DNA of 64,000 bases from Mucilaginibacter arboris (GTDB taxonomy: Bacteria > Bacteroidota > Bacteroidia > Sphingobacteriales > Sphingobacteriaceae), in NCBI RefSeq assembly GCF_009754915.1, contig NZ_WPIK01000007.1, positions 62,001 to 126,000 on the forward strand, given 5' to 3'. The translations under genes and the position numbers were made by a program. The notes under the pieces are model-generated. The model was not told the origin of the DNA, searched no databases, and was given only the letters and a program-made list of their open reading frames with translations. Below are positions 1,041 through 51,286 of the stretch, one piece after another (position 1 is the first letter of the stretch; each line of letters begins with the position of its first letter).

Positions 1041-1055
1041 CATAAAAGAAGCATC
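1041..1055 (+). repeat. Dispersed motif copy, convergent junction
   Basis: Exact 12-base core TAAAAGAAGCAT, between the ends of the convergent FKBP and photolyase genes. The preceding bases make a short TTTTATG/CATAAAA inverted repeat. Confidence 0.85.
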
Positions 1056-1064
1056 AGGAAACTA

Positions 1065-2375
1065 CTAATTGTTAAGCGCTTTTTTAAAAGCTGCCAGGCA
1101 TCGTTCCCTTGCTTTTTGATGATCTACAATTGGTGCCGGATATTTAAACGGGTCCAGATATTCGGGCACCCATTTTTTAATGTATTCAAATTTCGGGTCG
1201 AACCTTTTGGTTTGTGCAGCCGGACTAAATATCCTGAAAAAAGGGGCTGCATCCGTACCAGAACCTGCGGCCCATTGCCAACCGCCCACATTGCTGCTCA
1301 TATCGTAATCCAGTAGTTTACGGGCGAAGTAATGCTCGCCCCAGCGCCAATCGATCAGTAAATGTTTGGATAAAAAGCTCGCTGTTACCATTCGTAAACG
1401 GTTATGCATCCAGCCAATAGTATTTAATTGCCGCATTCCGGCATCTACCAACGGATAACCGGTTTTCCCTTTACACCAGGCTTCAAATTCCTGCTCGTTG
1501 TTTCGCCATTCAATCTTATCAAAATCCGATTTGTAAGAATGATCGATTGTTTGAGGAAAATGCCACAAGATCATTGCATAAAAATCCCGCCAGATTAACT
1601 CATTTAACCAGGTTTTTTCTTCGGATTGATTTGCTGCCGTTGCCAGTTCGCGGATACTTAACGTACCAAAACGCAAATGATGGCTGATGCGGGAAGTGCC
1701 TTGCAAAGCAGGAAAATCACGCGTTTTAGCATAATCTGCAATAACTGTTCTGTATTCTTTACCAGGAATTGGCAAAGTGCTAGTTTCAAAACCGATGGCT
1801 TGTAATGAAGGAAAATCCAGCTTAATTTTTAACAGGTTTTGTAAGTATTTTTCTACCGGATAAGCTTTCAGATAAAAATCATTCAGCTTCTCCTTCCATT
1901 TCCGCGAATAAGGCGTAAAAACAGTATAAGGCGTGCCGTCTGCTTTCATAATTTCATCACGGTCAAAAATAACCTGATCTTTATAGGTACAGAATTTGCT
2001 TCCTTTACCGGCTAAAAGTTGGCTGATTTCCTGGTCGCGCTGCCTGGCGTAAGGCTCATAATCTTGGTTGGTAAAAACAGTATCAACGTTGTACTCCTCT
2101 AAAATTTCAACCCATGCTTCTTTTGGCGAAGTATTTTTAATGAGGACAGAACTTTCCAAATCCTTCAGCTTCTGGTCCAGCTCAATTAAGGATTGATAAA
2201 TAAAAGTAACGCGTGCATCGTCTTTGTCTTCCAGTTTATCCAGGATTATGGTATCAAAAATAAACAAAGGCAAAACAGGTTTACCGCTTTTTAAGGCATG
2301 ATATAAGGCGGCATTATCATTCAGCCTTAAATCTCTTCTCAACCAAAAAATATTGATGCTTTGTTTATCGGGCAT
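1065..2375 (-). CDS. phrB: Deoxyribodipyrimidine photolyase (class I CPD type)
   Basis: A 436-residue cryptochrome/photolyase family protein. The N-terminal Rossmann-like antenna domain begins NIFWLRRDLRLNDNAAL (residues 8-24). The C-terminal FAD domain carries WRDFYAMILWHFP, GYPLVDAGMRQL, the GWMHNRLRM helix and NVGGWQWAAGSGTDA, which holds the tryptophan of the electron-transfer chain. This matches light-driven repair of cyclobutane pyrimidine dimers. Length is a little below the 470 residues of E. coli PhrB but no domain is missing. The start overlaps the end of the TIGR01777 gene by 11 bases, so the two are co-transcribed. Two TAAAAACAGTAT cores (1916, 2072) lie inside the frame. It is one of three photolyase/cryptochrome genes in the window. 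Confidence 0.92.
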   Translation of the reverse strand: MPDKQSINIFWLRRDLRLNDNAALYHALKSGKPVLPLFIFDTIILDKLEDKDDARVTFIYQSLIELDQKLKDLESSVLIKNTSPKEAWVEILEEYNVDTVFTNQDYEPYARQRDQEISQLLAGKGSKFCTYKDQVIFDRDEIMKADGTPYTVFTPYSRKWKEKLNDFYLKAYPVEKYLQNLLKIKLDFPSLQAIGFETSTLPIPGKEYRTVIADYAKTRDFPALQGTSRISHHLRFGTLSIRELATAANQSEEKTWLNELIWRDFYAMILWHFPQTIDHSYKSDFDKIEWRNNEQEFEAWCKGKTGYPLVDAGMRQLNTIGWMHNRLRMVTASFLSKHLLIDWRWGEHYFARKLLDYDMSSNVGGWQWAAGSGTDAAPFFRIFSPAAQTKRFDPKFEYIKKWVPEYLDPFKYPAPIVDHQKARERCLAAFKKALNN

Positions 2376-3341: not shown

Positions 3342-3357
3342 ATACTGTTTTTATGGA
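3342..3357 (-). repeat. Dispersed motif variant overlapping a start codon
   Basis: ATACTGTTTTTA (3342-3353), complement of the TAAAAACAGTAT form. Its last base is the first base of the ATG of the ferredoxin gene at 3353, in a divergent promoter region. Confidence 0.6.
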
Positions 3358-5354: not shown

Positions 5355-5391
5355 GTCATGCTGTTTTTATGCCGATAAAAACAGTATGACA
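5355..5391. terminator. Hairpin from an inverted pair of dispersed-motif variants
   Basis: GTCATGCTGTTTTTAT and ATAAAAACAGTATGAC form a long stem (one G-T mismatch plus the central bases) with a very short loop. It lies after the kinase remnant and before the convergent glgB. It is made of one GCAT-type and one GTAT-type TAAAAACAG motif. Confidence 0.6.
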
Positions 5392-13436: not shown

Positions 13437-13454
13437 CTAAAAGAAGCATCGGTT
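13437..13454 (+). repeat. Dispersed motif copy at the RND permease 3' end
   Basis: TAAAAGAAGCATCGG between the terminator and the permease stop codon, here opposite to the gene's direction. Confidence 0.8.
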
Positions 13455-20922: not shown

Positions 20923-20940
20923 GATGCTTCTTTTACCGGC
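20923..20940 (-). repeat. Dispersed motif copy
   Basis: GATGCTTCTTTTACCGGC, 6 bases after the ABC1-kinase stop codon and co-oriented with it. Confidence 0.85.
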
Positions 20941-20946
20941 AAAAAA

Positions 20947-22269
20947 TCAGTATTCCAGTAAAACATGTGGCCGGTAAGTATCGGTTTTAACTTCTGCTTT
21001 CAACTCGTGCAAAATGTTATATAAACCAAAATTGGTACGGTTAACATAAATAAAATGTTTCACGCCGCGGGCTTGTTTAAATTCTGGCATTTTTGCAATT
21101 TTCTCGCCAAAAGCATACAAACGGTCAAAGAAATCAGTTTTGCTAAAATCAAAACTGTCCGTCATATATGGTTTAGCAAAAAGTACGATCATCTCTTTAT
21201 AAGCCTGATAATAAAACTCGGTTTGCTGCGCATTATCATTGGGCAAAATCATTTCTAACTGACGGAAAGCTTTAATCGTTTCTTCTTTATTTTGAAGTAG
21301 ATCGGTAGAAGTCGTCGAAAAAAACGGATAATAAAAATCGTCTGGCATTTCTTTGATACAGCCAAAATCGATCACGCCCAATTTTCCTTCCGGCGTGATC
21401 ATAAAATTTCCCGGATGCGGATCAGCATGAACCGCGCGCAATTCGTGCTGCTGGAAATTATAAAAATCCCACAAAGCCTGCCCGATCAAATTCCTGGATC
21501 CCTGCGAAGGATTAGTTTGCAGATATTCCTTCAAATGCCTGCCTTCCAGCCAGCTCATGGTAATGATGCGTTTTTTAGAAAGTTCCGGGTAATAAGTCGG
21601 GAAAACAACGTTTTTCAAATCCTTGCAAGCTTCCGTAAACTCAATGGAACGGCGCACTTCCAGTTCATAATCGGTTTCTTCCAGCAAGCGTTCTTCCACT
21701 TCGCGCATGTAAATATCCAGTTCCTTTTCGCTCATTCCAAGTAAACGAAAAGCAAAAGGCTTGACCAGTTTCAAATCCGAAGAAATAGAATCGCCCACAC
21801 CCGGATATTGTATTTTTACCGCCAGCTTTTCCCCGTTCAATTCTGCCTCATGCACTTGTCCGATAGAAGCCGCATTGGTAGATTTTAAATTAAACCAATC
21901 ATAAATCTGCTCCGGCGATTTCCCGAAATACTTTCTAAAAGTCTGTACAATCAGCGGACCGGAAAGCGGCGGCGCATTATATTGCGATTGCGAAAACTTA
22001 TCTACATAAGCCGTAGGCAAAATATTTTTGTCCATGCTTAGCATTTGCGCCACTTTCAGCGCACTGCCTTTCAGTTCACTTAAAGATTCATAAATATCCG
22101 CCGCATTATCTTCATTCAACTCATCCTTGTTCATGCCTGGGTTGAATAACTTTTTAGAATAATGCTTTACGTAATTGCCGCCAATTTTAAAACCCGTTTT
22201 TACAAATCTGGCTGATCGTTGTACTTTGGATGTTGGTATGCTGTTCTGTTCTTTGTTTTCTTCGTTCAT
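20947..22269 (-). CDS. ABC1/UbiB-family atypical kinase (AarF type)
   Basis: A 440-residue member of the ABC1/UbiB protein-kinase-like family. The family signature is present: KxGQ-type motif (SELKGSALKVAQMLSM), the alanine-rich loop (TNAASIGQVHEA), VAIK-like AVKIQYPG, catalytic HADPHPGNF and metal-binding VIDFGC. Such proteins are ATPases linked to quinone or lipid metabolism in the membrane. I take the ATG at 22269 as start: sequence farther upstream stays open in frame but is repetitive, G+C-rich and not family-like. The start codon is part of a dispersed motif. A TetR gene upstream (23908) may be its regulator, now separated by a toxin-antitoxin pair. Confidence 0.88.
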   Translation of the reverse strand: MNEENKEQNSIPTSKVQRSARFVKTGFKIGGNYVKHYSKKLFNPGMNKDELNEDNAADIYESLSELKGSALKVAQMLSMDKNILPTAYVDKFSQSQYNAPPLSGPLIVQTFRKYFGKSPEQIYDWFNLKSTNAASIGQVHEAELNGEKLAVKIQYPGVGDSISSDLKLVKPFAFRLLGMSEKELDIYMREVEERLLEETDYELEVRRSIEFTEACKDLKNVVFPTYYPELSKKRIITMSWLEGRHLKEYLQTNPSQGSRNLIGQALWDFYNFQQHELRAVHADPHPGNFMITPEGKLGVIDFGCIKEMPDDFYYPFFSTTSTDLLQNKEETIKAFRQLEMILPNDNAQQTEFYYQAYKEMIVLFAKPYMTDSFDFSKTDFFDRLYAFGEKIAKMPEFKQARGVKHFIYVNRTNFGLYNILHELKAEVKTDTYRPHVLLEY

Positions 22270-22284
22270 GCTGTTTTTATCGGC
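22267..22284 (-). repeat. Dispersed motif variant that includes a start codon
   Basis: On the minus strand GCCGATAAAAACAGC runs directly into the ATG of the ABC1-kinase gene, so the motif's terminal CAT/ATG supplies the start codon. Confidence 0.75.
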
Positions 22285-22297
22285 AAATAATTGGTGT

Positions 22298-22440
22298 TGT
22301 TTAATACCGAGCGGAGAGGGGTGATCGAGGAGCGAAAAATCAACGGTTTTCGCTCGGCACTGTTCAATATCGAGCGGAGAGATCGAAGAGCATAAAATAA
22401 CGATCTTCGCTCCCCGCTCTTTTTTCTCCGCTCCGCGCAC
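22298..22440. repeat. Degenerate tandem G+C-rich repeat (63-base period)
   Basis: TGTTTAATACCGAGCGGAG (22298-) recurs 63 bases later as TGTTCAATATCGAGCGGAG (22361-). Each unit continues into a hairpin: GAGCGAAAA with TTTTCGCTC in the first, and GATCGAAGAGC with GATCTTCGCTC in the second. Composition is clearly more G+C-rich than the neighbours. Confidence 0.7.
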
Positions 22441-22450
22441 TTCTCTATTT

Positions 22451-22529
22451 GGGCGTGCCCATGCGGGCCGGGCTATCCGTTCCAAGTCCTCGCTTCGCTC
22501 CGGGCTTTCCGCTGCTATCCCTCACGCGG
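22451..22529. repeat. Bacteroidota-type G+C-rich interspersed repeat
   Basis: A block running from GGGCGTGCCCATGCGGGCC through TCCTCGCTTCGCTCCGGGC to CTATCCCTCACGCGG. From memory, near-identical blocks occur repeatedly in many flavobacterial and sphingobacterial genomes and are often mis-annotated as short proteins. It overlaps the 3' end of the small antitoxin-like gene, supplying its last codons and stop. Confidence 0.6.
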
Positions 22530-22757
22530 AGGATTAGACGCGGAGTTATCCTTAAGGGTATCTGAATTTAATTGTTCCAGATCTGTTTGATGTTCTTTTG
22601 CTTTATCCCAAACTTCTTGCGGAAGTAAACCTTTCTTGCTCTTAAAATATGCCAGTATTTGTTCTGAGTTCATATCTTGAATTTCTAAACTTATTTGATC
22701 GCGGATTTTTCGCAATTGGGCAACCATAGATTCGCCTTGCTGTGTTTCAGTCTTCAT
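22515..22757 (-). CDS. Antitoxin-like small protein paired with a PIN toxin
   Basis: An 80-residue charged helical protein (VAQLRKIRDQISLEIQDM, then SEQILAYFKSKKGLLP). Its start overlaps the end of the PIN gene by 11 bases, and short proteins with this RKIRDQIS/KxxMRDIRD-like start accompany PIN proteins of this type in Bacteroidota, so I infer the antitoxin. The C-terminal ten residues (SASNPPREG and the stop) come from the G+C-rich interspersed repeat, which suggests that repeat insertion replaced the native end. Confidence 0.6.
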   Translation of the reverse strand: MKTETQQGESMVAQLRKIRDQISLEIQDMNSEQILAYFKSKKGLLPQEVWDKAKEHQTDLEQLNSDTLKDNSASNPPREG

Positions 22758-23205
22758 ATTCTAAAATTTCTCTGGGTGATCTTATTTCCAAAATTTTGTG
22801 TCCGAATTTGGTATTAACAGAATTGTATCCGCGGATACGATTTACATTTACAATGTGCTTAAAATTCCAGCTAACCAAAATATCTGCATTGTTAAGCGTT
22901 GCCAAGGCGATATGATTACAATCAGAAATACTGGTTTTGCCTACTACTTTTTCTTCAATGTAAGCAATGGCTAAATCTGTGGCACTAATAGAATTTTCTA
23001 CAGTTTCAACTGACTCTTTAGGAAACTTGGCAAGAAGTTCTTTTACCCTTTCAGGAGCATCACGCAATTCTATACCAGTTAACTCAGAATAGATAACCTT
23101 ATACTTTCCTTCAATTATCCGGTCAAATAACATCTTCGTCCAAAGTTCAAACTCAGTATCAAAGTAACCGCCGAACACAGAAGTATCCAGATAAATTCTT
23201 TCCAT
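22747..23205 (-). CDS. PIN-domain protein, probable VapC-type toxin
   Basis: A 152-residue PIN protein that starts IYLDTSVFGGYFD with the first metal-binding Asp at residue 6. Other acidic residues expected in the active site are in the ELTGIELRDAP region and in TSISDCNHIALATLNNADILVSWNF, which is the usual second half of the fold. PIN toxins are Mg-dependent ribonucleases; the antitoxin-like gene overlaps its end. The pair sits between a TetR gene and the ABC1-kinase gene and may have inserted into a TetR-kinase unit. Function is inferred from fold and arrangement. Confidence 0.75.
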   Translation of the reverse strand: MERIYLDTSVFGGYFDTEFELWTKMLFDRIIEGKYKVIYSELTGIELRDAPERVKELLAKFPKESVETVENSISATDLAIAYIEEKVVGKTSISDCNHIALATLNNADILVSWNFKHIVNVNRIRGYNSVNTKFGHKILEIRSPREILEYED

Positions 23206-23254
23206 TTAATTTCGCTATCTATTCCGCTCTCCGCGCCAATATCCCCGCTCTTCC

Positions 23255-23908
23255 CTAAAACTTCATCTTCTCCCCAAATCCGCCGTTCTTCACCAAAAAC
23301 TTGCCGTAATCCAGCAAATTATCAACCGGCGAACGCTGGAAAAGATCAAAAGTAACATTCACGCCTTTTTCAATCGCTTCATCCGTTTTTTCAAAACCTT
23401 TGGATTCATCGTTCACCCAAAAATTTAAAACAAAACCAAACTGAATCCAAAGTGCATCTTTGTAACGGTTAGCCAGGAACTTGCGGTCGGCCAATTCACC
23501 GGTTTCTATGCCATCCTGCAAAATCTGTACACTAAAATTTTCAAATTCCTCTTTTAAACCTGCGTAAATTTTAGGCGTTCCCATACCTTTTGCGGCACGT
23601 TTGCTGCTAAAAACGGCGAAGCTTCTTTTACCCTTCAATAATTCGAAAAAGCTGTAGAAAAATGACAATGCTTTTTCGCGGGAAGTATATTGCGGCCAGA
23701 CTTCCTGCGTTTTAATTTCGGCGATGGTTTTTAAAGCCAAATCCGTCCAGATGCTTTGTTCCACGCCTTCAAACGAGCCGAAATGCTGGTAGAATTCCTC
23801 TTCGGAAAACTCATGTTTTTTAGCAAAAATGTAAACTGATTTAGGCTGTTCGCCTTCTGTCAATACGTAATCAATATAATCGTTCTGTATTTTTTCTGTT
23901 GAAGCCAT
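23255..23908 (-). CDS. TetR-like regulator with divergent DNA-binding domain
   Basis: A 217-residue protein with a TetR-like layout. Its N-terminal helix-turn-helix (VYIFAKKHEFSEEEFYQHFGS, about residues 24-44) keeps the EFYQHF recognition-helix pattern but lacks the usual TMDDIA block. The C-terminal helices (FFELLKGKRSFAVFSSK and following) match the C-terminal domain often seen beside ABC1-kinase genes in Bacteroidota, as I recall. A role in controlling the kinase is inferred from position. A partial motif lies at 23617-23634. Confidence 0.7.
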   Translation of the reverse strand: MASTEKIQNDYIDYVLTEGEQPKSVYIFAKKHEFSEEEFYQHFGSFEGVEQSIWTDLALKTIAEIKTQEVWPQYTSREKALSFFYSFFELLKGKRSFAVFSSKRAAKGMGTPKIYAGLKEEFENFSVQILQDGIETGELADRKFLANRYKDALWIQFGFVLNFWVNDESKGFEKTDEAIEKGVNVTFDLFQRSPVDNLLDYGKFLVKNGGFGEKMKF

Positions 23909-23917
23909 AATTTTTAT

Positions 23918-23935
23918 CGGATAAAAGAAGTATCT
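23918..23935 (+). repeat. Dispersed motif copy (GTAT form)
   Basis: CGGATAAAAGAAGTATCT, 9 bases upstream of the start codon of the TetR-like gene and opposite to it. Confidence 0.8.
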
Positions 23936-24030
23936 AATTCTGCTATTAAATTACGAAGTATTTTTAAGGTTGACCGCCGGTTCGTTAAGGTTTGATGTTA
24001 GGCTGACAAATAGTGCTTTACCTAAAAAAC

Positions 24031-24050
24031 ACCGGTAAAAGAAGCATCGG
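24031..24050 (+). repeat. Dispersed motif copy, full consensus
   Basis: ACCGGTAAAAGAAGCATCGG, a full 19-base match including the CCGGT/ATCGG flanks, 4 bases beyond the flavin reductase stop codon. Confidence 0.9.
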
Positions 24051-24054
24051 CCGT

Positions 24055-24705
24055 TTATTTAACGTTTAATTCTTCCGGAAATTTTTCTGGCTTGGCATAA
24101 CTTAAACGTGCCAGTTTTTTAGTTACATGATAGCTGTCTAAACCGGAAGCGGTAACAGAACCTGCTTTTTCCAGATCTACAAAGCCATCATCACTCACAA
24201 AACCTTCATCAACCTTAACCCATTTAATCTCGCCGATGATAATGCTGGTTTCGTTTAAAGTTACCGGCATAATTTCTTTCAGTTCCAAACCAATGGATAA
24301 AGAAGATTCTAAAATGTAAGGCGCTTTAAATCCATCCACATAACCTTCTGTAAAACCGCAATGTTTAAATTCAGAATCGCCGGAAGGATAACGCGCGCTT
24401 GCCTGATGTGCTTCTTTGTAAAAATCAGCAAGCACATTATTTAAAGTATAAAAACCAGTTGTTTTAATGTTTTTTAAAGTATCGTGCTGCGGGCCGGGCG
24501 GACGGGCAACCATACCAACCAGCGGCGGGTTTGCACCGAGATGAAAGATGGAACTAAAAACAGAAAGATTGGTGTTTCCAACTTCGTCAATCGTTCCCAG
24601 CAATTGCAAACTTTTAAAGCCGCCCAAACTGTTGATAAACATGGCGCGGTATTGCTTTTCCATCTGCATTAAGGCATCGTAAGTGTAAATTTTATTTTGG
24701 CTCAT
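24055..24705 (-). CDS. Flavin reductase-like FMN-binding protein
   Basis: A 216-residue split-barrel flavin-binding protein. The FMN-site region NLSVFSSIFHLGANPPLVGMV (about residues 45-65) and the HDTLKNIKTTGFYTLNNV segment are typical of the flavin reductase-like family. These proteins reduce or bind FMN/FAD using NAD(P)H. It is divergent from the DUF2256-cryptochrome cluster, whose enzymes need reduced FAD, so a supporting role is possible but only suggested by position. The ATG start is embedded in a motif copy. Confidence 0.85.
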   Translation of the reverse strand: MSQNKIYTYDALMQMEKQYRAMFINSLGGFKSLQLLGTIDEVGNTNLSVFSSIFHLGANPPLVGMVARPPGPQHDTLKNIKTTGFYTLNNVLADFYKEAHQASARYPSGDSEFKHCGFTEGYVDGFKAPYILESSLSIGLELKEIMPVTLNETSIIIGEIKWVKVDEGFVSDDGFVDLEKAGSVTASGLDSYHVTKKLARLSYAKPEKFPEELNVK

Positions 24706-24720
24706 GCTTCTTTTATCGGC
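24703..24720 (-). repeat. Dispersed motif copy that includes a start codon
   Basis: On the minus strand GCCGATAAAAGAAGCATG ends with the ATG of the flavin reductase gene. Confidence 0.85.
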
Positions 24721-24810
24721 TAAAACTTGTTAAGATGCTTGGGTAACATAAGTGGCTTTTCTTTGTTCATCTTTAACCCGATGATTCTTTCTGTCCAAGC
24801 AAGGTTAAAT

Positions 24811-26477: not shown

Positions 26478-26495
26478 ATGCTTCTTTTATCAACT
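26478..26495 (-). repeat. Dispersed motif copy between two photolyase genes
   Basis: CATGCTTCTTTTATCAAC lies between cry-DASH and the next gene, opposite to both. Confidence 0.85.
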
Positions 26496-26500
26496 AAAAA

Positions 26501-28039
26501 TTGGTGAAAAAAACATTACGTTTAATTTTAGGCGACCAGCTAAACACTAACCATTCCTGGTTTCGGGAAACAAAACCGGAAACGGTTTATGTGTTGATGG
26601 AAATGATGCAGGAGCAAACTTATGTAAAGCACCATATCCAGAAAATCCTCGCTTTTTTTGCTGCGATGCGCAACTTTGCTTACCAGTTGCAAAAAGCTGG
26701 GCACGAGGTTATTTATCTTAAATTAAATGATCGGGAAAATGAGCAAACCTTAACAGGCAACCTTCAAAAAATCATCGATAAAAGAAGCATCCAACAGTTT
26801 GAATATTTGTTGCCTGATGAATACCGATTAGATCAGCAGTTAAAGTCCTTTTGTAAATCCTTAAATATTCAAACCAAAGCTTACGATACCGAACATTTTT
26901 TTACCTCGCGGGAAGAAGTTGGCGATTTTTTCTCCGGCAAAAAACAACTGATTATGGAGAGCTTTTACCGGCACATGCGTCAAAAGCACGATCTGTTGAT
27001 GAACGGAAACGAACCGGTTGGCGGTTTGTGGAATTATGATCCTGATAACAGAAACCGTTATGACAGCAAAGTTCCGTTGCCTGAATCTTTGAGTTTTAAT
27101 CACGATTTAGGTGAGATTAAAAAGATGATTGATGCTATGCAAGTTCCTTATTTTGGAAATGTAGAAGCCAAAAAAGTTGCCTTACCGCTTTCCAGAAAAG
27201 AAGGTTTAAAGCTGATCGATTACTTCTGTCAAAACCTGCTGCCGCACTTTGGCACTTATGAAGATGCAATGCTGCAAGAACATGCTTCACTTTTTCATTC
27301 CCGTTTATCTTTTGCCTTGAATGTTAAGTTAATCTCTCCAAAGGAAGTAGTCAATCAGGCAATTTCTTATTGGCAATACAATCAAAAACAAATCAGCTTG
27401 CCACAAATAGAAGGTTTTGTAAGGCAGATTTTAGGCTGGCGCGAATACATGCGGGGCTTGTACTGGAACAAAATGCCGGAATTTGCGGAGAAGAACTTTT
27501 TCAATCACCAGGCCAAACTACCGGAATGGTTTTGGACGGGAGAAACCAAAATGAATTGTTTAAAGCATTGTATCGGGCAATCACTCAACCTTGCTTGGGC
27601 GCATCATATTCAACGCTTAATGGTAATTGGTAATTTTGCTTTGCTTTCCGGCAGTAATCCGGATGAAGTTGATGCCTGGTATCTGGGCGTTTATATTGAT
27701 GCGATGCAATGGGTGCAATTACCAAATACACGCGGCATGAGCCAGTTTGCAGATGGCGGAATAGTTGGTACAAAACCTTACGTGGCTTCGGCAGCTTACA
27801 TCAACAAAATGAGTAATTACTGCGGAAGCTGTTTTTACGATAAAAATAAAAAGTACGGCGAAAAAGCTTGTCCATACAACAGTTTGTACTGGGATTTTTT
27901 CTTCAGAAATGAACATCTTTTGGCAGATAACCAGCGTTTAAAATTGATTTACGGAAATTTGCACCGCTTAAAACCGGAAGATTTGGAAAAGATTTTAGAG
28001 CAGGCGGAAACTTACAAAAAGCAGGTTGATGAGTTGTAA
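26501..28039 (+). CDS. FeS-containing (6-4) photolyase-like protein (PhrB/FeS-BCP type)
   Basis: A protein of about 511 residues of the deoxyribodipyrimidine photolyase-related group. The antenna domain starts TLRLILGDQLN. All four cysteines of the [4Fe-4S] cluster of the Agrobacterium enzyme appear with matching spacing: Cys353 (MNCLKHC), Cys441 and Cys444 (NYCGSCFYD) and Cys457 (ACPYN). The GWREYMRGLYW and NTRGMSQFADGG regions are also typical. These enzymes repair (6-4) photoproducts. There is no ATG at the start: TTG at 26501 or GTG at 26504 is used. An exact motif lies in frame at 26776-26791 (DKRSI). Confidence 0.92.
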   Translation: MVKKTLRLILGDQLNTNHSWFRETKPETVYVLMEMMQEQTYVKHHIQKILAFFAAMRNFAYQLQKAGHEVIYLKLNDRENEQTLTGNLQKIIDKRSIQQFEYLLPDEYRLDQQLKSFCKSLNIQTKAYDTEHFFTSREEVGDFFSGKKQLIMESFYRHMRQKHDLLMNGNEPVGGLWNYDPDNRNRYDSKVPLPESLSFNHDLGEIKKMIDAMQVPYFGNVEAKKVALPLSRKEGLKLIDYFCQNLLPHFGTYEDAMLQEHASLFHSRLSFALNVKLISPKEVVNQAISYWQYNQKQISLPQIEGFVRQILGWREYMRGLYWNKMPEFAEKNFFNHQAKLPEWFWTGETKMNCLKHCIGQSLNLAWAHHIQRLMVIGNFALLSGSNPDEVDAWYLGVYIDAMQWVQLPNTRGMSQFADGGIVGTKPYVASAAYINKMSNYCGSCFYDKNKKYGEKACPYNSLYWDFFFRNEHLLADNQRLKLIYGNLHRLKPEDLEKILEQAETYKKQVDEL

Positions 28040-31770: not shown

Positions 31771-33366
31771 ATGAGTTTAGAGATCAAAGTTCCGCCGGTA
31801 GGCGAATCCATTTCTGAGGTTACCTTATCAAACTGGGTAAAAAACGATGGTGACCATGTAGAAATGGATGATGTTATTGCCGAGCTGGAATCAGACAAAG
31901 CTACCTTTGAATTAACAGCCGAAGCAGCAGGAACACTTAGAACTACTGCAAAAGAAGGTGATGTACTGGCTATTGGCGATGTTGTTTGCACCATTGAATC
32001 TGCTGATGCCGCTACAGCACCTGCAGAAAAAACGCCGGTAAAAGAAGCATCGGCAGAAACAAAACCAGTAAACACTGAACCGGCATCAGCAGAAGCTCCG
32101 AAAACAGTAACAGCATCTGCTGCACAGGAAATTGAGATCAAAATTCCGGCTGTTGGCGAATCAATACAGGAAGTTACCTTGACCCGCTGGATGAAAAAAG
32201 ACGGCGAACAGGTAGAAATGGACGAACCCATTGCCGAACTGGAATCAGACAAGGCAACGTTTGAACTGAATGCAGAAAGCGCCGGAACACTAACTACGAT
32301 TGCCCAGGAAGGTGATGTGGTAATGATTGGGGCGTTGGTTGGTAAGATTAAAGCTGGCGCAGGTGCACCTCAAACAGAAAAAACACCGGTAAAAGAAGTA
32401 GCAGAAAAAGCAGAAATTTCTGCCGGTTCCGGTGATCAGCCTAAAACTTATGCTTCTGGTGTTCCTTCGCCTGCAGCAGCGAAAATATTGGCTGAAAGAG
32501 GACTTGATCCGAAAAATATCAATGGTAACGGTGTTGGCGGAAGGATTACCAAAGAAGATGCACAGAAAGCGGAAGTTTCTAAACCGACAGCAAAAACTGA
32601 AAGTAAACCAGCTCCGGCTCCTGCAAAACCTGCTGCTCCTGCGCCTCAGCCTGTTGTTGCTGGCAGTCGCGGAGAACGCCGCGAAAAGATGTCTTCCTTG
32701 CGAAAAACAGTTGCTAAACGATTGGTTGCCGTAAAAAATGAAACAGCCATGCTGACTACTTTTAACGAAGTAGATATGCAGCCAATTATGGAATTGCGTT
32801 CCAAATACAAAGATAAATTCAAAGAAAAGCACCAGGTTGGTTTGGGCTTTATGTCCTTCTTTACAAAAGCAGTTACAGAAGCTTTGAAAGACTGGCCTGC
32901 AGTTGGTGCACGCATTGAAGGTGAGGAAGTAGTTTACAGCAATTTTGCTGATATTTCTATTGCTGTTTCTGCGCCAAAAGGCCTGGTTGTTCCAATTATC
33001 CGTAATGCAGACAGCATGAGCCTGGCAGAAATTGAAAAAGCAATTGTTGCCTTAGCCGGTAAAGCGCGTGAAAACAAGTTGACGATTGATGAAATGACAG
33101 GCGGAACTTTTACCATTACCAACGGTGGCGTTTTTGGTTCGATGTTATCTACGCCAATTATCAACTCGCCGCAATCTGCAATTTTAGGTATGCATAATAT
33201 TATTGAGCGGCCGGTGGCAGTAAACGGACAAGTGGTTATCCGCCCGATGATGTATCTGGCTTTATCATACGATCACCGGATTGTGGACGGCAGGGAATCG
33301 GTTAGTTTCTTAGTCCGCGTAAAACAATTATTAGAAGATCCGGCGAGATTACTGCTGGGGGTATAA
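31771..33366 (+). CDS. sucB: 2-oxoglutarate dehydrogenase E2, dihydrolipoyl succinyltransferase with two lipoyl domains
   Basis: A 531-residue E2. Two lipoyl domains are present: residues 2-77 (lipoyl Lys43 in ESDKATF) and 120-195 (Lys161 in the same motif). A peripheral subunit-binding domain follows (about 231-267, [15 protein letters not shown]), then the acyltransferase domain with catalytic DHRIVDG (His502, Asp506). Most SucB proteins have one lipoyl domain; here the domain and its linker are duplicated. Each linker has an in-frame dispersed motif, EKTPVKEAS (32034-32054) and EKTPVKEVA (32384-32402), so these two copies may come from the domain duplication. Confidence 0.95.
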
Positions 33367-36722: not shown

Positions 36723-37659
36723 CAGGTTAGCAGTTGCCAAACGGGTATTTCAAACAGAAATAGAATCGTTACAACGCGTTGCCAATCATCTCAACGAAAC
36801 TTTTGAGCAAGCTGTAGAACTGATTTTAAATACCCAAGGCAAAGTAATTGTATGCGGAATCGGGAAATCGGGTTTGATCGGAAAAAAAATTGTTGCCACA
36901 CTTTCCAGTACCGGCACGCCAGCTTTTTTTTTGCATCCGAGCGAAGCTTTTCATGGCGATTTAGGGATTATCAGCAAAGAAGATGTAATTGTTTTGATTT
37001 CTTTTTCCGGAGAAACAGACGAAGTGCTTAAAGTAATCCCTTTTCTTAAATGGCATAAAAATCGAATCATCGCCATCACCGGAAACCCAAATTCTACTCT
37101 GGCCAGAAATGCCGATTGTTGCCTTAACTTAGTCATAACGCAGGAAGCTTGTCCTTTGCAGCTTGCACCAACTTCTTCAACTACAGCCATGCTGGTTTTA
37201 GGCGATGCTTTGGCTGTTGCTTTAATGGAAGCCCGGAATTTTATGCAGGAAGATTTTGCCCGCTTTCATCCGGGCGGAAGTTTGGGCCGAAAATTAGTAA
37301 CGCGGGTAAAAGGTTTAATGCGGACAGACAACCTGCCTTTTATCAAAGCTAATGCTTCTTTTACCGACCTGATTTTAAAGATGTCGGCAGGGCGTTTAGG
37401 TTTGGTAATTATTGGTGATGAAGAAAAGGCAGAAGGCATTATTACCGATGGCGACCTGCGTCGCGGATTGATGCGTTTCCCGGATACTTCTACTATTAAA
37501 ATTGCAGATATCTTCAACCCAAACCCGGTTATTATTGCCGAAAATGAATTTATCAGCGAAGCAGAAAACCTGATGATCCAGAAAAAGATCGCCACGGTTT
37601 TAGTTGGCGATGCAGAAAAAAGGGTGGTAAAAGGAGTATATCAGATCTATAACACCTGA
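36712..37659 (+). CDS. kdsD: Arabinose-5-phosphate isomerase (KpsF/GutQ family)
   Basis: A 315-residue protein with an N-terminal SIS domain (residues 30-180: [49 protein letters not shown]) and two C-terminal CBS motifs (from about 205). It converts ribulose 5-phosphate to arabinose 5-phosphate, the substrate of KdsA, whose gene overlaps it. A motif copy in antisense orientation lies in frame at 37351-37369 (NASFTDL). Confidence 0.94.
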
Positions 37660-40853: not shown

Positions 40854-40894
40854 CCGATACTGTTTTTATCAAGATAAAAACAGTATCGGTTTTT
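40854..40894. terminator. Bidirectional terminator made of two inverted motif variants
   Basis: CCGATACTGTTTTTATC (40854-40870) and GATAAAAACAGTATCGG (40873-40889) are perfect reverse complements, 17 bp, with only two bases between, followed by TTTTTT. It lies between the convergent lipocalin and TonB-receptor genes. Confidence 0.9.
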
Positions 40895-40897
40895 TGT

Positions 40898-42952
40898 TTA
40901 AAACTGAACTTGAATGCCAGCAAACCAATTACGAAGTGGTGCAGCATTATAATATCTTAATCCAACTGCATTTAAATCATTACCTAAACTATAATGCTGA
41001 TTTAGTAAATTATCAATTCCAGCATAAATGTTTAAGTTAGTTTTTTTGCTGAGGTTTTTGTTCCAGCCAACTTTAGTTTGTATCAAATGGTAAGCGTTTG
41101 CAAAAGCTGTATTGGCATCATCAAGCGGAAGTTTTGCAGTATAATTGTGCTGTAAAAAGAAGTAGAACCGGGCAGGGAACGTTGCATTTAACTGGCTGAC
41201 TGATACTGTTGCCGGAACACCTGTTAATTTATTTCCCGAATAATTTGCGCTTGCATTGAAATAATCGCGGAAACGGAACCTGCTTAAAGTTAAGCTGTTG
41301 CTAATTGTTAAACTCCTGACAAAATCATTTGCATTTGCAGGGATGATCTGGAAAATTACCGAAGTTTCTATTCCTGCCTGGTTTGTTCCGCCGGCATTCA
41401 AATAATATTCTGTTCCGTTATCATTTAACCTACGCACAATTGCGTTGTTTAAGCGGTAATAAAAAACAGCAGCATCTATATTAAAACGTGCGTTTGTACT
41501 TTGCTTTCTGAAACCGGTTTCGTAATTCCAGCCTTTTTCTGCCTGTAAATTATTATTGATGATGTTACTGGTTGGCCTTACTTCTGCTGTTGCAGGTGTA
41601 GAATAACCGCGGCTAACAGTTGCGCGCCAGGCAAAATTGTTGGTTACTTGGTAAGATAAGGCAACCCTCGGCATCAGTACAGGTTTGAAATGATTATTAC
41701 CGGCTGAGGCAGCAACATCAGTAAAGTTGTAACTATAATTGTTTAAACTGAGCGCAGTTTCAGCATGAATTTTTTTGATAATCGTTGCAGCAAAGCGCGT
41801 AAAATAAAAGCTTTGTTTGCTGAGGATATGGCTTGAAGCCTGTAAACTACCACGCACACCTTTATTGTTATCGTAATTGTTGATGTCAGATTTGGTTTGC
41901 TGCATTTCTGTTCCCAAATCCCATTTCCAGTCTAATTGATTATGCTGTTTGCTGCTTAGTTCCAAATAACTTCTTAAACCAATTGTGTTTTCTAATCTTA
42001 CTTCTTCATTGGTAATAAAAGGGTTATCAAAATTGGTGTGCATACCGTAAACAGCAATAACATGTTTAAGGTTAGGCAGATAAAAAGACTCGTTAGCAAC
42101 ACCGCCAAAAACAGTTTTATTGTAAACTGCTGCATGCTGCTCTATGGCCCCGGGCGAAGTTGCAGTTGCAGGCCGTGCTGCCTGCGGGTTTTGCAGAAAC
42201 TCGGGCAGCGTTAAACCGCCTGGCGTTTGGTAATCTATGTCAGTATAAAAAAATAAAGCTTTTAATTGTCCGTTTGCAGCATAAGTCCAGGTATCAGCAG
42301 CTTGTATAAACTTCCGTTTTAAAGCACTGTTTTGCCGGTAACCATTCGATTGTTGCCAGCTTTGGCTGATGTTGAGCTGGTTATTTTTAGATGCTTCTTT
42401 TACCGCTATATTTTCGCGATAGCTGTTGTAAGAGCCAGCATCAAACCCAACAGAAGCTGTACTTTCCTGCTGATGGCTGCCAAAAGGATCGATCAAAACC
42501 ACACCGTTGGAATTAGCGCCGTATAAACTTCCATCCGGGCCACGCAAAACAGTAATGTTTTGTATCGCACTTAAATCAAGCAGGTTGAGGTAAGTATTTC
42601 CGCCAGCATCCGTTAACGGAAATTCATCCATGTAAATCTTCACATTTCTCACTCCAAAAGGCGAACGCAATAAACTTCCACGAATAGAAAGTCGATAACT
42701 TCCAGGCGAACGTTCTTCCATCCGTACGCCCGGTACTGTATTTACTGCCGGAACGAGCGAAAAACCGGATTGCATTTGCAGTTGCGGCAAATTAATTGTA
42801 CCAACTGCTGCCGGAACAGTTAAAAGCGGTTGCTGGGTTAAATAAGCTTTTATAACTACTTCCTGCAGTTTTTTTAACGTGTCTGTTTGTTGTGCAGAGG
42901 TACGCTGAAATGATAGGGAAGCAATTAAAAAAAAAGTAATTGTTTTATACAT
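40898..42952 (-). CDS. TonB-dependent outer-membrane receptor
   Basis: A 684-residue receptor with a signal peptide (cleavage near TSAQ, about residue 20). The TonB box region LQEVVIKAY and plug domain follow (IRGSLLRSPFGVRNVKIYMD, TVLRGPDGSLYG). The rest is a 22-strand-type beta barrel ending in WFAGIQVQF, with the usual C-terminal aromatic. The size and the LQEVVIKA box resemble siderophore or heme receptors more than SusC, and no SusD gene is near. Ligand unknown. Motif copy 42390-42407 lies in frame (AVKEASKN). Confidence 0.9.
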   Translation of the reverse strand: MYKTITFFLIASLSFQRTSAQQTDTLKKLQEVVIKAYLTQQPLLTVPAAVGTINLPQLQMQSGFSLVPAVNTVPGVRMEERSPGSYRLSIRGSLLRSPFGVRNVKIYMDEFPLTDAGGNTYLNLLDLSAIQNITVLRGPDGSLYGANSNGVVLIDPFGSHQQESTASVGFDAGSYNSYRENIAVKEASKNNQLNISQSWQQSNGYRQNSALKRKFIQAADTWTYAANGQLKALFFYTDIDYQTPGGLTLPEFLQNPQAARPATATSPGAIEQHAAVYNKTVFGGVANESFYLPNLKHVIAVYGMHTNFDNPFITNEEVRLENTIGLRSYLELSSKQHNQLDWKWDLGTEMQQTKSDINNYDNNKGVRGSLQASSHILSKQSFYFTRFAATIIKKIHAETALSLNNYSYNFTDVAASAGNNHFKPVLMPRVALSYQVTNNFAWRATVSRGYSTPATAEVRPTSNIINNNLQAEKGWNYETGFRKQSTNARFNIDAAVFYYRLNNAIVRRLNDNGTEYYLNAGGTNQAGIETSVIFQIIPANANDFVRSLTISNSLTLSRFRFRDYFNASANYSGNKLTGVPATVSVSQLNATFPARFYFFLQHNYTAKLPLDDANTAFANAYHLIQTKVGWNKNLSKKTNLNIYAGIDNLLNQHYSLGNDLNAVGLRYYNAAPLRNWFAGIQVQF

Positions 42953-46190: not shown

Positions 46191-46234
46191 GATAAAAGAA
46201 GCATCAGGTTTTTTGCTGATGCTTCTTTTATCAG
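46191..46234. terminator. Bidirectional hairpin made of two inverted dispersed motifs
   Basis: GATAAAAGAAGCATCAG (46191-46207) and CTGATGCTTCTTTTATC (46216-46232) are perfect reverse complements of 17 bp with an eight-base T-rich loop, between the convergent metallopeptidase and udk genes. The udk stop codon (46231-46233) lies within the right motif. Confidence 0.88.
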
Positions 46235-49246: not shown

Positions 49247-49327
49247 AATACTTCTTTTATCAATAAAAAACCTTATTTGTTAATAGCAAACGAGGTTTTT
49301 GATTTTATGCTGATAAAAGAAGCATTA
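49247..49327. terminator. Nested hairpin: inverted dispersed motifs around a second stem-loop
   Basis: TAATACTTCTTTTATCA (from 49246) and TGATAAAAGAAGCATTA (49311-49327) are reverse complements with one mismatch (A-C, or G-U in one RNA). Between them AAAAACC and GGTTTTT form a second stem. It separates the convergent dps and ubiD genes, and the ubiD stop codon (49325-49327) is inside the right motif. Confidence 0.8.
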
Positions 49328-51235
49328 TTCTGAAACCACGGCTCCGCCTTTGTAAAGTTGCTTCTGGTATTTTAACGAAGGTGATTTGATCAGCTCGCCT
49401 AAACCTAAACGCGGCCACATTTCATCAACTTTTTCAATTACTTCGGTTGTGTTTGCCAGGATGTTTGGCCAGTCGCGTTCAAAACCGTCCAGTTCTTTGG
49501 TTTTTCTGGTTCCGTCAAAACCAATATGAGAAAGGCTTTGATTGTTTTTTGCCTTAACAACAAAAGCATCCCGTTTTGGGTCGATATTATTGGCAAAGCG
49601 CCAAACGGCATCAGCCGTATCAGAAATATCAATTGTATGGTCGAGATAAAGCACAATTTTAACTTCGTCCAGCAAACCTTGTTTAAACAGGTTTTGGTTA
49701 AGTTCTTCGATCTGGTCAGGTTTTGTTTTTTCTACGGAGATAAAAATCAGCGAAATCCCTAATTGAAGCAAAGAATCATTCATGTCCGTAATAGCAGGAT
49801 TTTGAATTTTAATGGCTTCCTTGTTTATGGCTGATGCTGTTTTTATCGATACTTTTTCTTCGTTTGTTCTTAATTCTTCCGGATGTTTTTTGGTTGCATC
49901 GATTCCCATTTTCCCGCCAAAAGCAGCTTTAGAACAGGAGTGGTCCAGCACATCCATCGGACCGGAAGTGAAAATAAAATCCTGCTGCGGGTCAACATTT
50001 TCAGAAATGTATTTTGCAACTGCTGCGTTATCCTGAATGTTAACATCGCCATCAACCACCACAATCATTTTGGTGAACATCATTTGTCCGGCGCCCCAAA
50101 GTGAGTTCATCACTTTCATCGCTTGTCCGGGATAATCTTTTCTGATCTTAACAATTGCCAAATTATGGAATACGCCTTCCATTGGTAAAACCATATCTAC
50201 AATTTCCGGCACCATCGTCATTTTAATAGGAGCGAGGAAAATACGTTCGGTTGCTTTACCAATCCAGGCATCTTCCTGCGGCGGAATGCCAACAATCGTG
50301 GCCGGGTAAACCGCATTTTTACGATGTGTAATAGCGGTGATATGAAAACGCGGGTACCAATCGGCTAAGGAATAATAACCGGTATGATCTCCAAACGGAC
50401 CTTCCCAGATGTAATCTTCTTCCGGGTCAACATAACCTTCGATAATAAAATCTGCATCCGCCGGAACTTGTACATCCTGGGTTAAACATTGTACCAGTTC
50501 TACTTTTTTCTTTCTGAGAAAACCGGCTAACATATACTCATCAATTCCATCAGGCAAGGGGGCGGTTGCAGCATAAGTATAAACCGGGTCTCCGCCTAAA
50601 GCAACGGCAACCGGCATTTTTTTGCCCAACTTTTTATATTCCTGGAAATGGCGTGCAGAAACTTTGTGTTTATGCCAGTGCATTCCGGTTAGTTGCGGTT
50701 CAAAAACCTGCATCCGGTACATGCCCACATTGCGGATTCCGGTTAAAGGATCCTTGGTATGGATAACCGGAAGTGTAACAAACGGGCCGCCATCTTCCGG
50801 CCAGCAGGTTAAAACCGGCAGTTTGGTCATATCGGGGTTTTGCATGACCACTTCCTGGCAGGTGCCTTTCCCCGAAATGGTTTTCGGCATCCAGGAGGAA
50901 ATCTGTCCTAACTTCGGCAACATTTTCAATTTATCTAAAATGGTGTCTTTTGGCCCGGTCAGGGTTTTAAACAAGCTTTCAATTTCTTTAGAAATATCGT
51001 CCATTTCTTCCACGCCTAAAGCCATGCACATGCGTTTATAATTTCCCATGGAATTGATCAGCACAGGAAAATCATAGCCAGTATTTTCAAACAGCAAAGC
51101 AGGGCCATATTGCTTAGAAACACGGTCGGTTATTTCGGTTATTTCTAATTTCGGATCAACTTTTTCTTTGATCCGTACCAGTTCGCCGGCTTTTTCAAGC
51201 GTATCTATAAAATGTTGCAGGTTTTTGTAAGCCAT
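49325..51235 (-). CDS. UbiD-family (menaquinone-type) decarboxylase
   Basis: A 636-residue prenylated-FMN-dependent decarboxylase of the UbiD family. Landmarks: LLFENTGYDFPVLINSMG near the start, WPEDGGPFVTLPVIHTKDP, WEGPFGDHTGYYS (holding a catalytic Glu and Arg/Glu-type residues), GIPPQEDAWIGKATERIFL and GSLWGAGQ-like VMNSLWGAGQ. The length exceeds E. coli UbiD (497) and fits the longer group annotated as menaquinone biosynthesis decarboxylase. A UbiX-type partner is not in the window. Motif at 49830-49851 (SIKTASA) lies in frame. Confidence 0.9.
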   Translation of the reverse strand: MAYKNLQHFIDTLEKAGELVRIKEKVDPKLEITEITDRVSKQYGPALLFENTGYDFPVLINSMGNYKRMCMALGVEEMDDISKEIESLFKTLTGPKDTILDKLKMLPKLGQISSWMPKTISGKGTCQEVVMQNPDMTKLPVLTCWPEDGGPFVTLPVIHTKDPLTGIRNVGMYRMQVFEPQLTGMHWHKHKVSARHFQEYKKLGKKMPVAVALGGDPVYTYAATAPLPDGIDEYMLAGFLRKKKVELVQCLTQDVQVPADADFIIEGYVDPEEDYIWEGPFGDHTGYYSLADWYPRFHITAITHRKNAVYPATIVGIPPQEDAWIGKATERIFLAPIKMTMVPEIVDMVLPMEGVFHNLAIVKIRKDYPGQAMKVMNSLWGAGQMMFTKMIVVVDGDVNIQDNAAVAKYISENVDPQQDFIFTSGPMDVLDHSCSKAAFGGKMGIDATKKHPEELRTNEEKVSIKTASAINKEAIKIQNPAITDMNDSLLQLGISLIFISVEKTKPDQIEELNQNLFKQGLLDEVKIVLYLDHTIDISDTADAVWRFANNIDPKRDAFVVKAKNNQSLSHIGFDGTRKTKELDGFERDWPNILANTTEVIEKVDEMWPRLGLGELIKSPSLKYQKQLYKGGAVVSE

Positions 51236-51269: not shown

Positions 51270-51286
51270 GATACTTCTTTTACCGC
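51270..51286 (-). repeat. Dispersed motif copy (GTAT form)
   Basis: GATACTTCTTTTACCGC between the ubiD start and the FadL-like gene's terminator. Confidence 0.8.

Follow-up and report, generated by a model that had tools for sequence, protein, structure and literature searches.

A highly iterated, genus-restricted motif as a candidate DNA uptake sequence in Bacteroidota

The window, a stretch of 64,000 nucleotides of Mucilaginibacter arboris DNA, harbors 46 copies of a short motif between positions 1043 and 62516, several of which overlap or adjoin the ends of genes encoding an ABC1 kinase, a flavin reductase, a ferredoxin-like protein (for which all Pfam matches are below the cut-off), Udk and UbiD. 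The motif follows the consensus YGR-TAAAA(GA or AC)AGYAT and consists of a non-palindromic core, occurring in two mostly exclusive forms that differ in a coupled dinucleotide (GA or AC at core positions 6-7), and a single A/T tract on its 5′ side, one helical turn upstream of the core. A preliminary description of this DNA had located the overlaps with gene ends correctly overall, while the registers of several copies needed correction. An AC-form copy on the minus strand (22268-22279) shares its last AT with the ATG of the ABC1 kinase gene (22269-22267), and a GA-form copy on the same strand (24704-24715) does so in the same register with the ATG of the flavin reductase gene. A final ATG of the motif had been thought to supply both start codons; the AT is indeed common to motif and codon, but the G lies outside the core. 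At the ABC1 kinase site, motif and ATG also occur together in the two congeners compared, G001 (AC form) and G002 (GA form).

The remaining overlaps are smaller. In a minus-strand copy at 3342-3353, the first core base lies opposite the A of the start codon of the ferredoxin-like gene, as it also does in G002; the overlap is of one base, and the copy, previously regarded as a variant, is a full antisense member of the AC form rather than a degraded one. The udk stop codon (TGA, 46233-46231), formerly placed inside a copy, adjoins the core at 46219-46230 (minus strand), supplying the YGA of the extended motif, and an inverted-pair partner of this copy lies on the plus strand at 46193-46204, across a 14-bp gap. 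The ubiD stop codon does overlap a plus-strand copy (49314-49325), but has only one base in common with its core, and this copy is absent from the aligned G001 site. Beyond the ABC1 kinase stop codon lies a minus-strand copy (20924-20935) that is of the AC form at the aligned G001 site, and directly past the flavin reductase stop codon a plus-strand copy (24036-24047), each of the three species having the motif close to this stop.

Further copies lie both within and outside genes. Inverted pairs in -/+ arrangement with a 6-bp gap are located at 5358-5387 (cores 5358-5369 and 5376-5387) and 40857-40886 (cores 40857-40868 and 40875-40886), the latter being kept in G001 and G002. A copy within a photolyase-related gene (26779-26790, plus strand) is of the GA form in G001 and the AC form in G002, and an AC-form copy within ubiD (49834-49845, minus strand) is of the GA form in G001. 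Among other gene-internal copies, those at 2072-2083 (plus), 37352-37363 (minus) and 42391-42402 (minus) are kept in both congeners, as is a further copy at 1043-1054 (plus), while a gene-internal copy at 32039-32050 (plus) is kept in G001 and degraded in G002. The copy at 13438-13449 (plus) is kept in G002 and carries one mismatch in G001, that at 23922-23933 (plus) is kept in G001 and lost in G002, that at 26478-26489 (minus) is kept in G002, and those at 49248-49259 and 51271-51282 (both minus) are kept in G001. The other cores start at 1916, 2388, 3672, 4256, 5453, 11885, 12533, 13179, 28053, 28747, 33377, 35362, 43024, 43624, 47542, 55216, 56478, 56729, 58683, 59090 and 62505, as well as at 34410, where the A/T tract is missing and the match is probably due to chance.

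The preliminary description had proposed that the motif is positioned with respect to gene boundaries. Overlaps were counted in four samples (contig C1, the window, and one stretch each of G001 and G002), in which genes were called with a simple in-house script, such that individual start codons are predictions. On contig C1, 11 starts and 18 stops are overlapped, against 3.85 and 3.35 expected for uniform placement. Motif density on this contig is, however, 11 times higher outside genes than inside, and once this non-coding preference is allowed for, 12.99 starts and 12.06 stops are expected and the large excess over uniform chance vanishes. On the same basis, 3 starts and 1 stop are overlapped in the window (2.43 and 2.37 expected), 4 and 4 in the G001 stretch (4.46 and 4.47) and 3 and 1 in the G002 stretch (2.50 and 2.40), giving 21 starts against 22.4 and 24 stops against 21.3 over the four samples. 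Overlapping copies occur in either orientation, and gene-internal copies show the two-part motif in almost as complete a form as those elsewhere. The start and stop overlaps are thus a by-product of the mainly intergenic placement of the motif, and no adjustment to boundaries is needed. The overlaps fall in registers in which codon and motif have letters in common. A rough letter-sharing model predicts 7.0 overlaps in the main start register, where 12 are seen, and 2.3 and 6.4 in two others, where 5 and 16 are seen, such that these three of the five registers may hold an excess of about two-fold over this model. The model takes no account of what altering a codon costs, and therefore predicts too many overlaps in the two registers that reach into genes (30.3 and 51.3, against 5 and 8 seen).

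An effect of the motif on translation initiation had also been suggested. Among 35 motif-free ABC1 kinase orthologs shown, from 79 loci fetched, the start positions of which were read manually from the alignment listing, the ATG occupies the same alignment column in 12; in 13 it lies one codon further out, in eight it lies one to four codons further in, and two are longer still. The suggestion consequently fails for this gene, the ATG being at the same place in many relatives that lack the motif. For the flavin reductase such an effect is possible, the start differing from that of G001 and G002, where the ATG lies four codons further in and the motif is missing; in the window species, AAA occupies the position of the congeners' start codon, and the ATG shared with the motif is the outermost start of the reading frame. 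The upstream DNA is, however, unlike between the species, and a rearrangement would therefore be a sufficient cause of the shift. That copies are placed so as to create or adjust start and stop codons is accordingly very improbable, even given the unusual flavin reductase start and the possible excess in letter-sharing registers, since the overlap numbers are those expected from intergenic preference and the ABC1 kinase start is unaltered in many relatives that lack the motif.

Genome-wide, the motif is present in approximately 3,000 copies, or about 750 per Mb. The exact word TAAAAGAAGCAT has 1,947 matches, 965 and 982 on the two strands, against one for the reversed control word, and the full pattern occurs 349 times in the 461 kb sampled, against two to five times in five order-3 simulations. 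Most one-base variants are nearly missing. In single copies, the A/T share at positions -9 to -7 is 95-97% within genes and 99-100% outside. Such a density, within as well as between genes, would suit a Chi-like recombination hot-spot or other replication-oriented signal. Taking GC skew as a proxy for replication direction, however, no orientation bias is observed on contig C1 (144 plus, 159 minus) and only a slight one with respect to gene direction (120 along, 89 against), while neither strand skew nor even spacing gives a signal, the spacing being near random (CV 0.98). This reading, which is further disfavored by the absence of the repeat from relatives, is improbable.

The density on contig C1 is highest between convergent genes (4.7 per kb, compared to 3.5 for tandem and 2.6 for divergent intergenic regions), and inverted pairs could form hairpins, as might be expected of a transcription terminator or RNA-level signal at gene ends. 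The gaps in such pairs are of 6 bp in 10 of 23 -/+ arrangements and of 10-15 bp in 11 of 16 +/- arrangements. Nevertheless, 408 of the 511 copies classified have no second copy starting within 80 bp, both orientations are present at starts and at stops, and 134 of the 303 copies on contig C1 are gene-internal, with the A/T tract included; a role in termination is likewise improbable. The high copy number, together with the restriction to a single lineage, could also point to a mobile or insertion-type repeat of the REP or MITE kind. There is, however, little conserved sequence past about -17 and +20 of the motif, and gaps within the motif are found in just 9 of 130 aligned ordered comparisons (six directions summed), the remainder being intact or substituted; this already disfavored origin can be regarded as the least probable of all.

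The word TAAAAGAAGCAT occurs in 1,118 to 2,114 copies in each of the three genomes of the genus examined and in at most ten copies in each of 198 other genomes of the family. The preliminary description's alternative of a recent gain can therefore be upheld at the level of the genus, where the motif is abundant, being near absent from the other genomes of the family examined. At aligned sites, the motif is kept in 106 of 135 ordered comparisons and lost in 29, compared to 70 of 887 control words that are identical, and 14 of the 106 kept sites switch between the GA and AC forms. This conservation applies to those copies that can be aligned, as about half of the window copies lack an alignment (23/46 to G001, 27/46 to G002). 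The one conjugative element examined contains three copies in 53.5 kb and none in the 41 kb harboring the relaxase, TraM, TraG and coupling protein genes; such scarcity in a newcomer is expected of any slowly gained motif.

An excess of copies in either orientation, within genes as well as between them, with an A/T tract at helical spacing and characteristic spacing of inverted pairs, is the pattern found for uptake sequences. On the strength of this analysis, we consider it somewhat more probable than not that the motif functions as the DNA uptake, or self-recognition, sequence of the genus, similar to the USS of Haemophilus. At the cell surface or in the periplasm, a receptor for double-stranded DNA would read both the core TAAAA(GA/AC)AGYAT and the A/T tract situated one helical turn upstream of it, and fragments bearing the motif would be taken up preferentially. 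The imported DNA would then cross the inner membrane via ComEC, and DprA would assist its recombination. Copies would accumulate over time in either orientation, mostly where they are cheapest, between genes, since alleles bearing the motif would be re-imported more often than those free of it. The motif with its two-part shape, its abundance, its restriction to one genus among those examined, its constraint between species and its scarcity in one conjugative element are observed, as are the competence proteins described below, while the receptor, the bias in uptake and the drive are inferred.

ComEC, DprA and a ComEA-like HhH protein are present in all three genomes of the genus. As ComEC is near universal, being found in 35 of the 37 genomes searched, its presence is weak evidence, and the set as a whole does not discriminate between the readings. 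For the pilus motor, no match to the secretion/pilus ATPase family PF00437 exceeds the cut-off in the three genomes of the genus, and eight of the 37 searched have one that does. All USS and DUS systems known to us use type IV pili, and the lack of a motor match would be in keeping with a role unrelated to uptake, in which the motif is the binding site of an abundant, sequence-specific chromosome-organizing or global DNA-binding protein of the genus, selected at many places. The site is two-part, strand-neutral and of a double-strand type, is constrained between species and strongly prefers non-coding DNA, all of which would fit such a protein. Conversely, near several stop codons the position or the orientation of the copies varies from one species to another, there is no tie to the replication strand and at most a slight one to gene direction, and we know of no chromosome protein with some 3,000 strict 12-bp sites. 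A binding site of this kind is therefore unlikely, while deserving more weight than the other alternatives.

Dispersed 10-mers were furthermore sought in pieces of approximately 20 kb. As a control, the motif ranked first among the words in 27 of 29 pieces from the genus (L006 and L011 being missed). In 59 other loci 18 kb or more in length, from the 79 fetched, no word occurred in more than six places, although four of these (L037, L041, L058 and L088) scored as high as the genus pieces, at the locus level only, from words in four to six places. The high score of L153 appeared to derive from repeated coding sequence. Among 20 pieces from 20 other genomes, a single one, from G040 of another family, was upheld genome-wide, with the unrelated dispersed motif GGTCAGADCC. 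It is conceivable, and we suggest it tentatively, that Bacteroidota evolved their own DNA uptake watermarks, which in this genus would operate without type IV pili through a receptor reading a two-part site with a core of two interchangeable forms, and that unrelated dialects (TAAAA[GA/AC]AGYAT here and GGTCAGADCC in G040) arose independently in two or more families of this class.

To our knowledge, the only bacteria with known genomic uptake sequences are Pasteurellaceae and Neisseriaceae, and both of these families have type IV pili. In the literature covered, mostly non-subscription papers, nothing was found on such a motif in Bacteroidota, the context coming from Riemerella and the known families of uptake sequences alone. 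The motif is as such a strong candidate for an uptake sequence in another phylum, in a lineage with motif-free relatives and with no match to the usual pilus motor over the cut-off. It may provide an independent case for how uptake-sequence systems begin, whether with drive or receptor first, and a way towards identifying the surface DNA receptor of Bacteroidota. If the proposal is correct, placing the motif on donor DNA would furthermore be a tool for transforming these bacteria.

Other highly iterated short sequences include HIP1 of cyanobacteria, Chi sites and REP/BIME elements. The motif differs from HIP1 in that its core is not a palindrome, from Chi in that it shows no strand bias on contig C1, and from REP in lacking a long conserved repeat. 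We know of no A/T tract in the DUS of Neisseriaceae, which sets these apart from the motif. The DUS receptor is described as ComP, a type IV minor pilin. DUS resemble the motif in their thousands of copies, in having a dialect per lineage and in forming inverted pairs (PMC3630211). The two DUS dialects of the Simonsiella muelleri genome are one base apart (PMC3630211), whereas the two forms here differ in a coupled dinucleotide. Conjugative elements have also been identified through DUS distributions (PMC7371117).

Natural transformation in Riemerella, of the same phylum, is a further parallel, ComEC, DprA and an HhH protein being present here. Riemerella columbina prefers its own DNA, the k-mers given for Riemerella consist of A/T-rich runs, and no uptake sequence was established there (PMC7965970). 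A surface protein with a DUF5689 domain is essential for transformation in Riemerella (PMC8459023). In this genus DUF5689 has no match in any of the three genomes, and such a protein was rejected as the receptor.

The USS of H. influenzae and other Pasteurellaceae differ from the motif in their core, whereas the single 5′ A/T tract and the two mostly exclusive core forms are particular to the latter, as are a host belonging to Bacteroidota, the lack of a pilus ATPase over the cut-off and an uptake role that is, from the sequence, a candidate one. They are, however, similarly composed of a short strict core with one or more A/T tracts, are likewise lineage-specific, and reach approximately 1,000 copies per Mb, compared to about 750 for the motif (PMC7811141). 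USS also form inverted pairs with fixed spacing in the -/+ and +/- arrangements, at 0-3 and 10-14 bp in H. influenzae (PMC7811141), as does the motif described here.

The pattern TAAAA(GA|AC)AG(C|T)A(T|C) is found in 349 copies in contig C1 of the same genome (396,822 bases) and the window combined, the sample used for pattern counts, while five order-3 simulations yield 2, 3, 4, 2 and 5 copies. In this sample TAAAAGAAGCAT is present 193 times. Among its single-base variants, the one with T for C at position 10 has 39 copies, those altered at position 12 have 8-21 each and the one with A at position 6 has 14, with at most six copies of each remaining variant, and core positions 6-7 are coupled (GA: 193; AC: 52; AA: 14; GC: 1). 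Genome-wide, 965 and 982 copies of TAAAAGAAGCAT are carried on the two strands (reversed control: 0 and 1), along with 374 and 340 copies of TAAAAACAGYAT, and scaling from 349 copies in 461 kb to 4.16 Mb gives an estimate of about 3,100 copies of the full pattern in this genome. The core is preceded by YGR (-2 to 0) and, further out, by an A/T tract (-11 to -6; 97-98% A/T at -9 to -7). The tract sits about 11 bp from the TAAAA run, a distance of one helical turn, and there is little conservation past -17 and +20. Single copies retain 95-97% A/T at -9 to -7 inside genes (coding background: 60%) and 99-100% outside genes (background: 69%). The flank is the same for copies with GA or AC at positions 6-7, which points to a single putative reader for both forms.

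The two-part motif is strict and private to one lineage. The three genus genomes contain 1,947, 2,114 and 1,118 copies of TAAAAGAAGCAT, while the other 57 of 60 genomes contain 0-9; in an even draw of 201 family genomes from a larger group, only these three have high counts, the remaining 198 having at most ten. Within the best 80 of 233 named-relative loci, one from an uncultured Mucilaginibacter sp. (L024), which corresponds to the congener G001, has 16 pattern matches, L037 has one match, with the full word, and the others have at most one, so that the motif-bearing lineage sits beside Mucilaginibacter within the Sphingobacteriaceae. Other words, such as AGCGGAGTCG, GTCACTGCGA/GTCATTGCGA and CTTAATTTCA, recur at 4-6 sites per 21 kb of the Pedobacter and Mucilaginibacter loci L037, L041, L058 and L088, these counts being local to the loci.

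Twenty other genomes were sampled by a single 20-kb piece each, and one piece, that of G040, a genome from another family (loci L151 and L169-L179), yielded a second dispersed motif, GGTCAGAACC. It is present in 457 copies across this 3.1 Mb genome (reversed control: 1) and in at most 15 in each of 59 other genomes. Over 240 kb the word reads GGTCAGADCC (position 8: 36 G, 35 T, 33 A, 2 C), with weaker TTY and RAA flanks derived from 33 copies (extended form: TTYGGTCAGADCCRAA), and is unrelated to the genus motif. This suggests, short of proof, a repeated origin of such marks within the class.

Both strands of C1 carry the motif about equally (144 plus, 159 minus), and no relation between motif strand and GC skew is visible on this contig. 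Called genes make up 89.7% of C1 and hold 134 of the 303 copies, an average of about 0.38 copies per kb of genic and 4.1 per kb of other sequence; across four samples, 120 in-gene copies run along the gene direction and 89 against it. Pairs at most 60 bp apart are mostly inverted (23 -/+ and 16 +/-; tandem: 4 and 5). Exactly 6 bp separates the cores in 10/23 -/+ pairs, an arrangement in which the TTTTA of each core may double as the A/T tract of its partner, and 11/16 +/- pairs have a 10-15 bp gap. Spacings of 0-3 and 10-14 bp have been reported for uptake signal sequence (USS) pairs of H. influenzae (PMC7811141).

A preliminary description had proposed that the motif supplies start and stop codons and that its position is adjusted to gene boundaries. 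The coordinates on which this relied are correct, with two core bases common to the ATG only in the ABC1-kinase (22267-22269) and flavin-reductase (24703-24705) genes on the minus strand; the ferredoxin start (3353) and ubiD stop (49325) each have one base in common with the core, while the udk stop (46231) adjoins it. Pfam backs the names ABC1 kinase, flavin reductase, PRK/uridine kinase and UbiD; the "ferredoxin" gene matches only Suc_Fer-like and DUF1636, both below cut-off. The adjustment itself finds no support, as copies in the window, C1 and stretches of the congeners G001 and G002 overlap 21 starts and 24 stops, against 22.4 and 21.3 expected if the copies in contact with non-coding DNA are shuffled over every position of that kind. 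Counted as codon-motif pairs, whose sums differ slightly from these totals, the final AT of the motif is that of the ATG in 12 cases, with 5 and 5 in the antisense registers, while the core TAA is the stop in 8, the antisense core lies at its last A in 16 and the core ends on its first base in 2. For the start registers, a rough letter-sharing model that ignores coding cost predicts 7.0, 2.3 and 30.3; its values for the first two of the stop registers are 51.3 and 6.4. Three registers exceed the model about two-fold and two fall far below it.

Orthologue starts, proposed as a check on the claim, were compared: in 35 out-of-genus ABC1-kinase loci among the 36 listed of 80, the ATG is in the window's column in 12 and one codon further out in 13. 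In G001 (AC form) and G002 (GA form) the ABC1-kinase ATG carries the motif at the same place. Repeated G-rich words (ccgagcggagag, tcgagcggagag) are found upstream of this gene at 22300-22430. The flavin-reductase start in the window (24690-24730), with its ATG in the motif, lies four codons further upstream than in either congener (MSQNKIYTYD; G001: MIYNYD; G002: MIYTHD); the window codon aligned to their ATG is AAA, and the upstream DNA is unlike that of either. G002 agrees with the window at the start of the ferredoxin-like gene, to which no match was found in the G001 stretch.

The motif is retained between species yet turning over. The window is largely syntenic with G001 and G002 (71-85% identity per block), and the motif is retained at 106/135 gapless aligned copies, these being ordered comparisons among three species in which one site may be counted repeatedly; among control 12-base words taken 45-90 bases away 70/887 are identical, identity being demanded of the control while the motif may vary at its degenerate positions. 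Retention extends to 36/53 copies inside genes and 70/82 others, identity at -11 to -7 is also raised (0.89-0.93), and 14/106 retained copies are in the other form, a switch that takes two substitutions. Of the 46 window copies, 23 lack an alignment to G001 and 27 to G002. A copy lies near the ABC1-kinase and flavin-reductase stops in all three species, shifted or in the other form; at the udk stop the G001 copy is further on and antisense to the window's, and G001 has none at the place of the ubiD stop. A 223-base direct repeat (31780-32356; 71% identical units, 354 bases apart) lies within one gene, with a motif (32039) or near-motif (32373-32401) after each unit.

The motif is scarce in one conjugative element, examined at 25,001-78,466 of contig C8 (L137-L139). 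This region encodes a relaxase, TraM, TraG, a coupling protein, ArdC and a DNA polymerase III alpha subunit, with a type I restriction system and AbiEii towards its lower end. Its 53,466 bases contain three copies, all of them within the restriction genes (35.0-37.6 kb). The remaining 41 kb or so to the contig end contain none, against about 31 predicted from the density in C1 and the window; 10-21 copies were counted in each of six 20-kb control stretches. The main rival reading, in which this element, strand-neutral and of double-stranded type, would serve a chromosome protein as its binding site throughout the genome, is in our view rather unlikely. We consider it reasonably probable that the motif works like an uptake sequence.

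ComEC is encoded in all three genus genomes (35 of 37 genomes searched), as are DprA and a protein carrying a pair of helix-hairpin-helix stretches (306 amino acids in the window's genome). The latter resembles, by domain, the periplasmic helix-hairpin-helix protein described as required in Riemerella (PMC8459023). No genus protein matches DUF5689 (11/37 searched genomes do) or exceeds the cut-off for the ATPase family PF00437, for which 8/37 searched genomes have a match, that in G040 being strong. R. columbina favours its own DNA, but the k-mers given for it are A/T-rich runs (PMC7965970). Among the known kinds of short sequence that are iterated many times, the genus motif agrees with the USS of Haemophilus and the DNA uptake sequence (DUS) of Neisseria in the sequence features tested, an agreement that underlies the reading as an uptake sequence, but it fails the single pilus feature tested. 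It is not assigned to the USS/DUS family.
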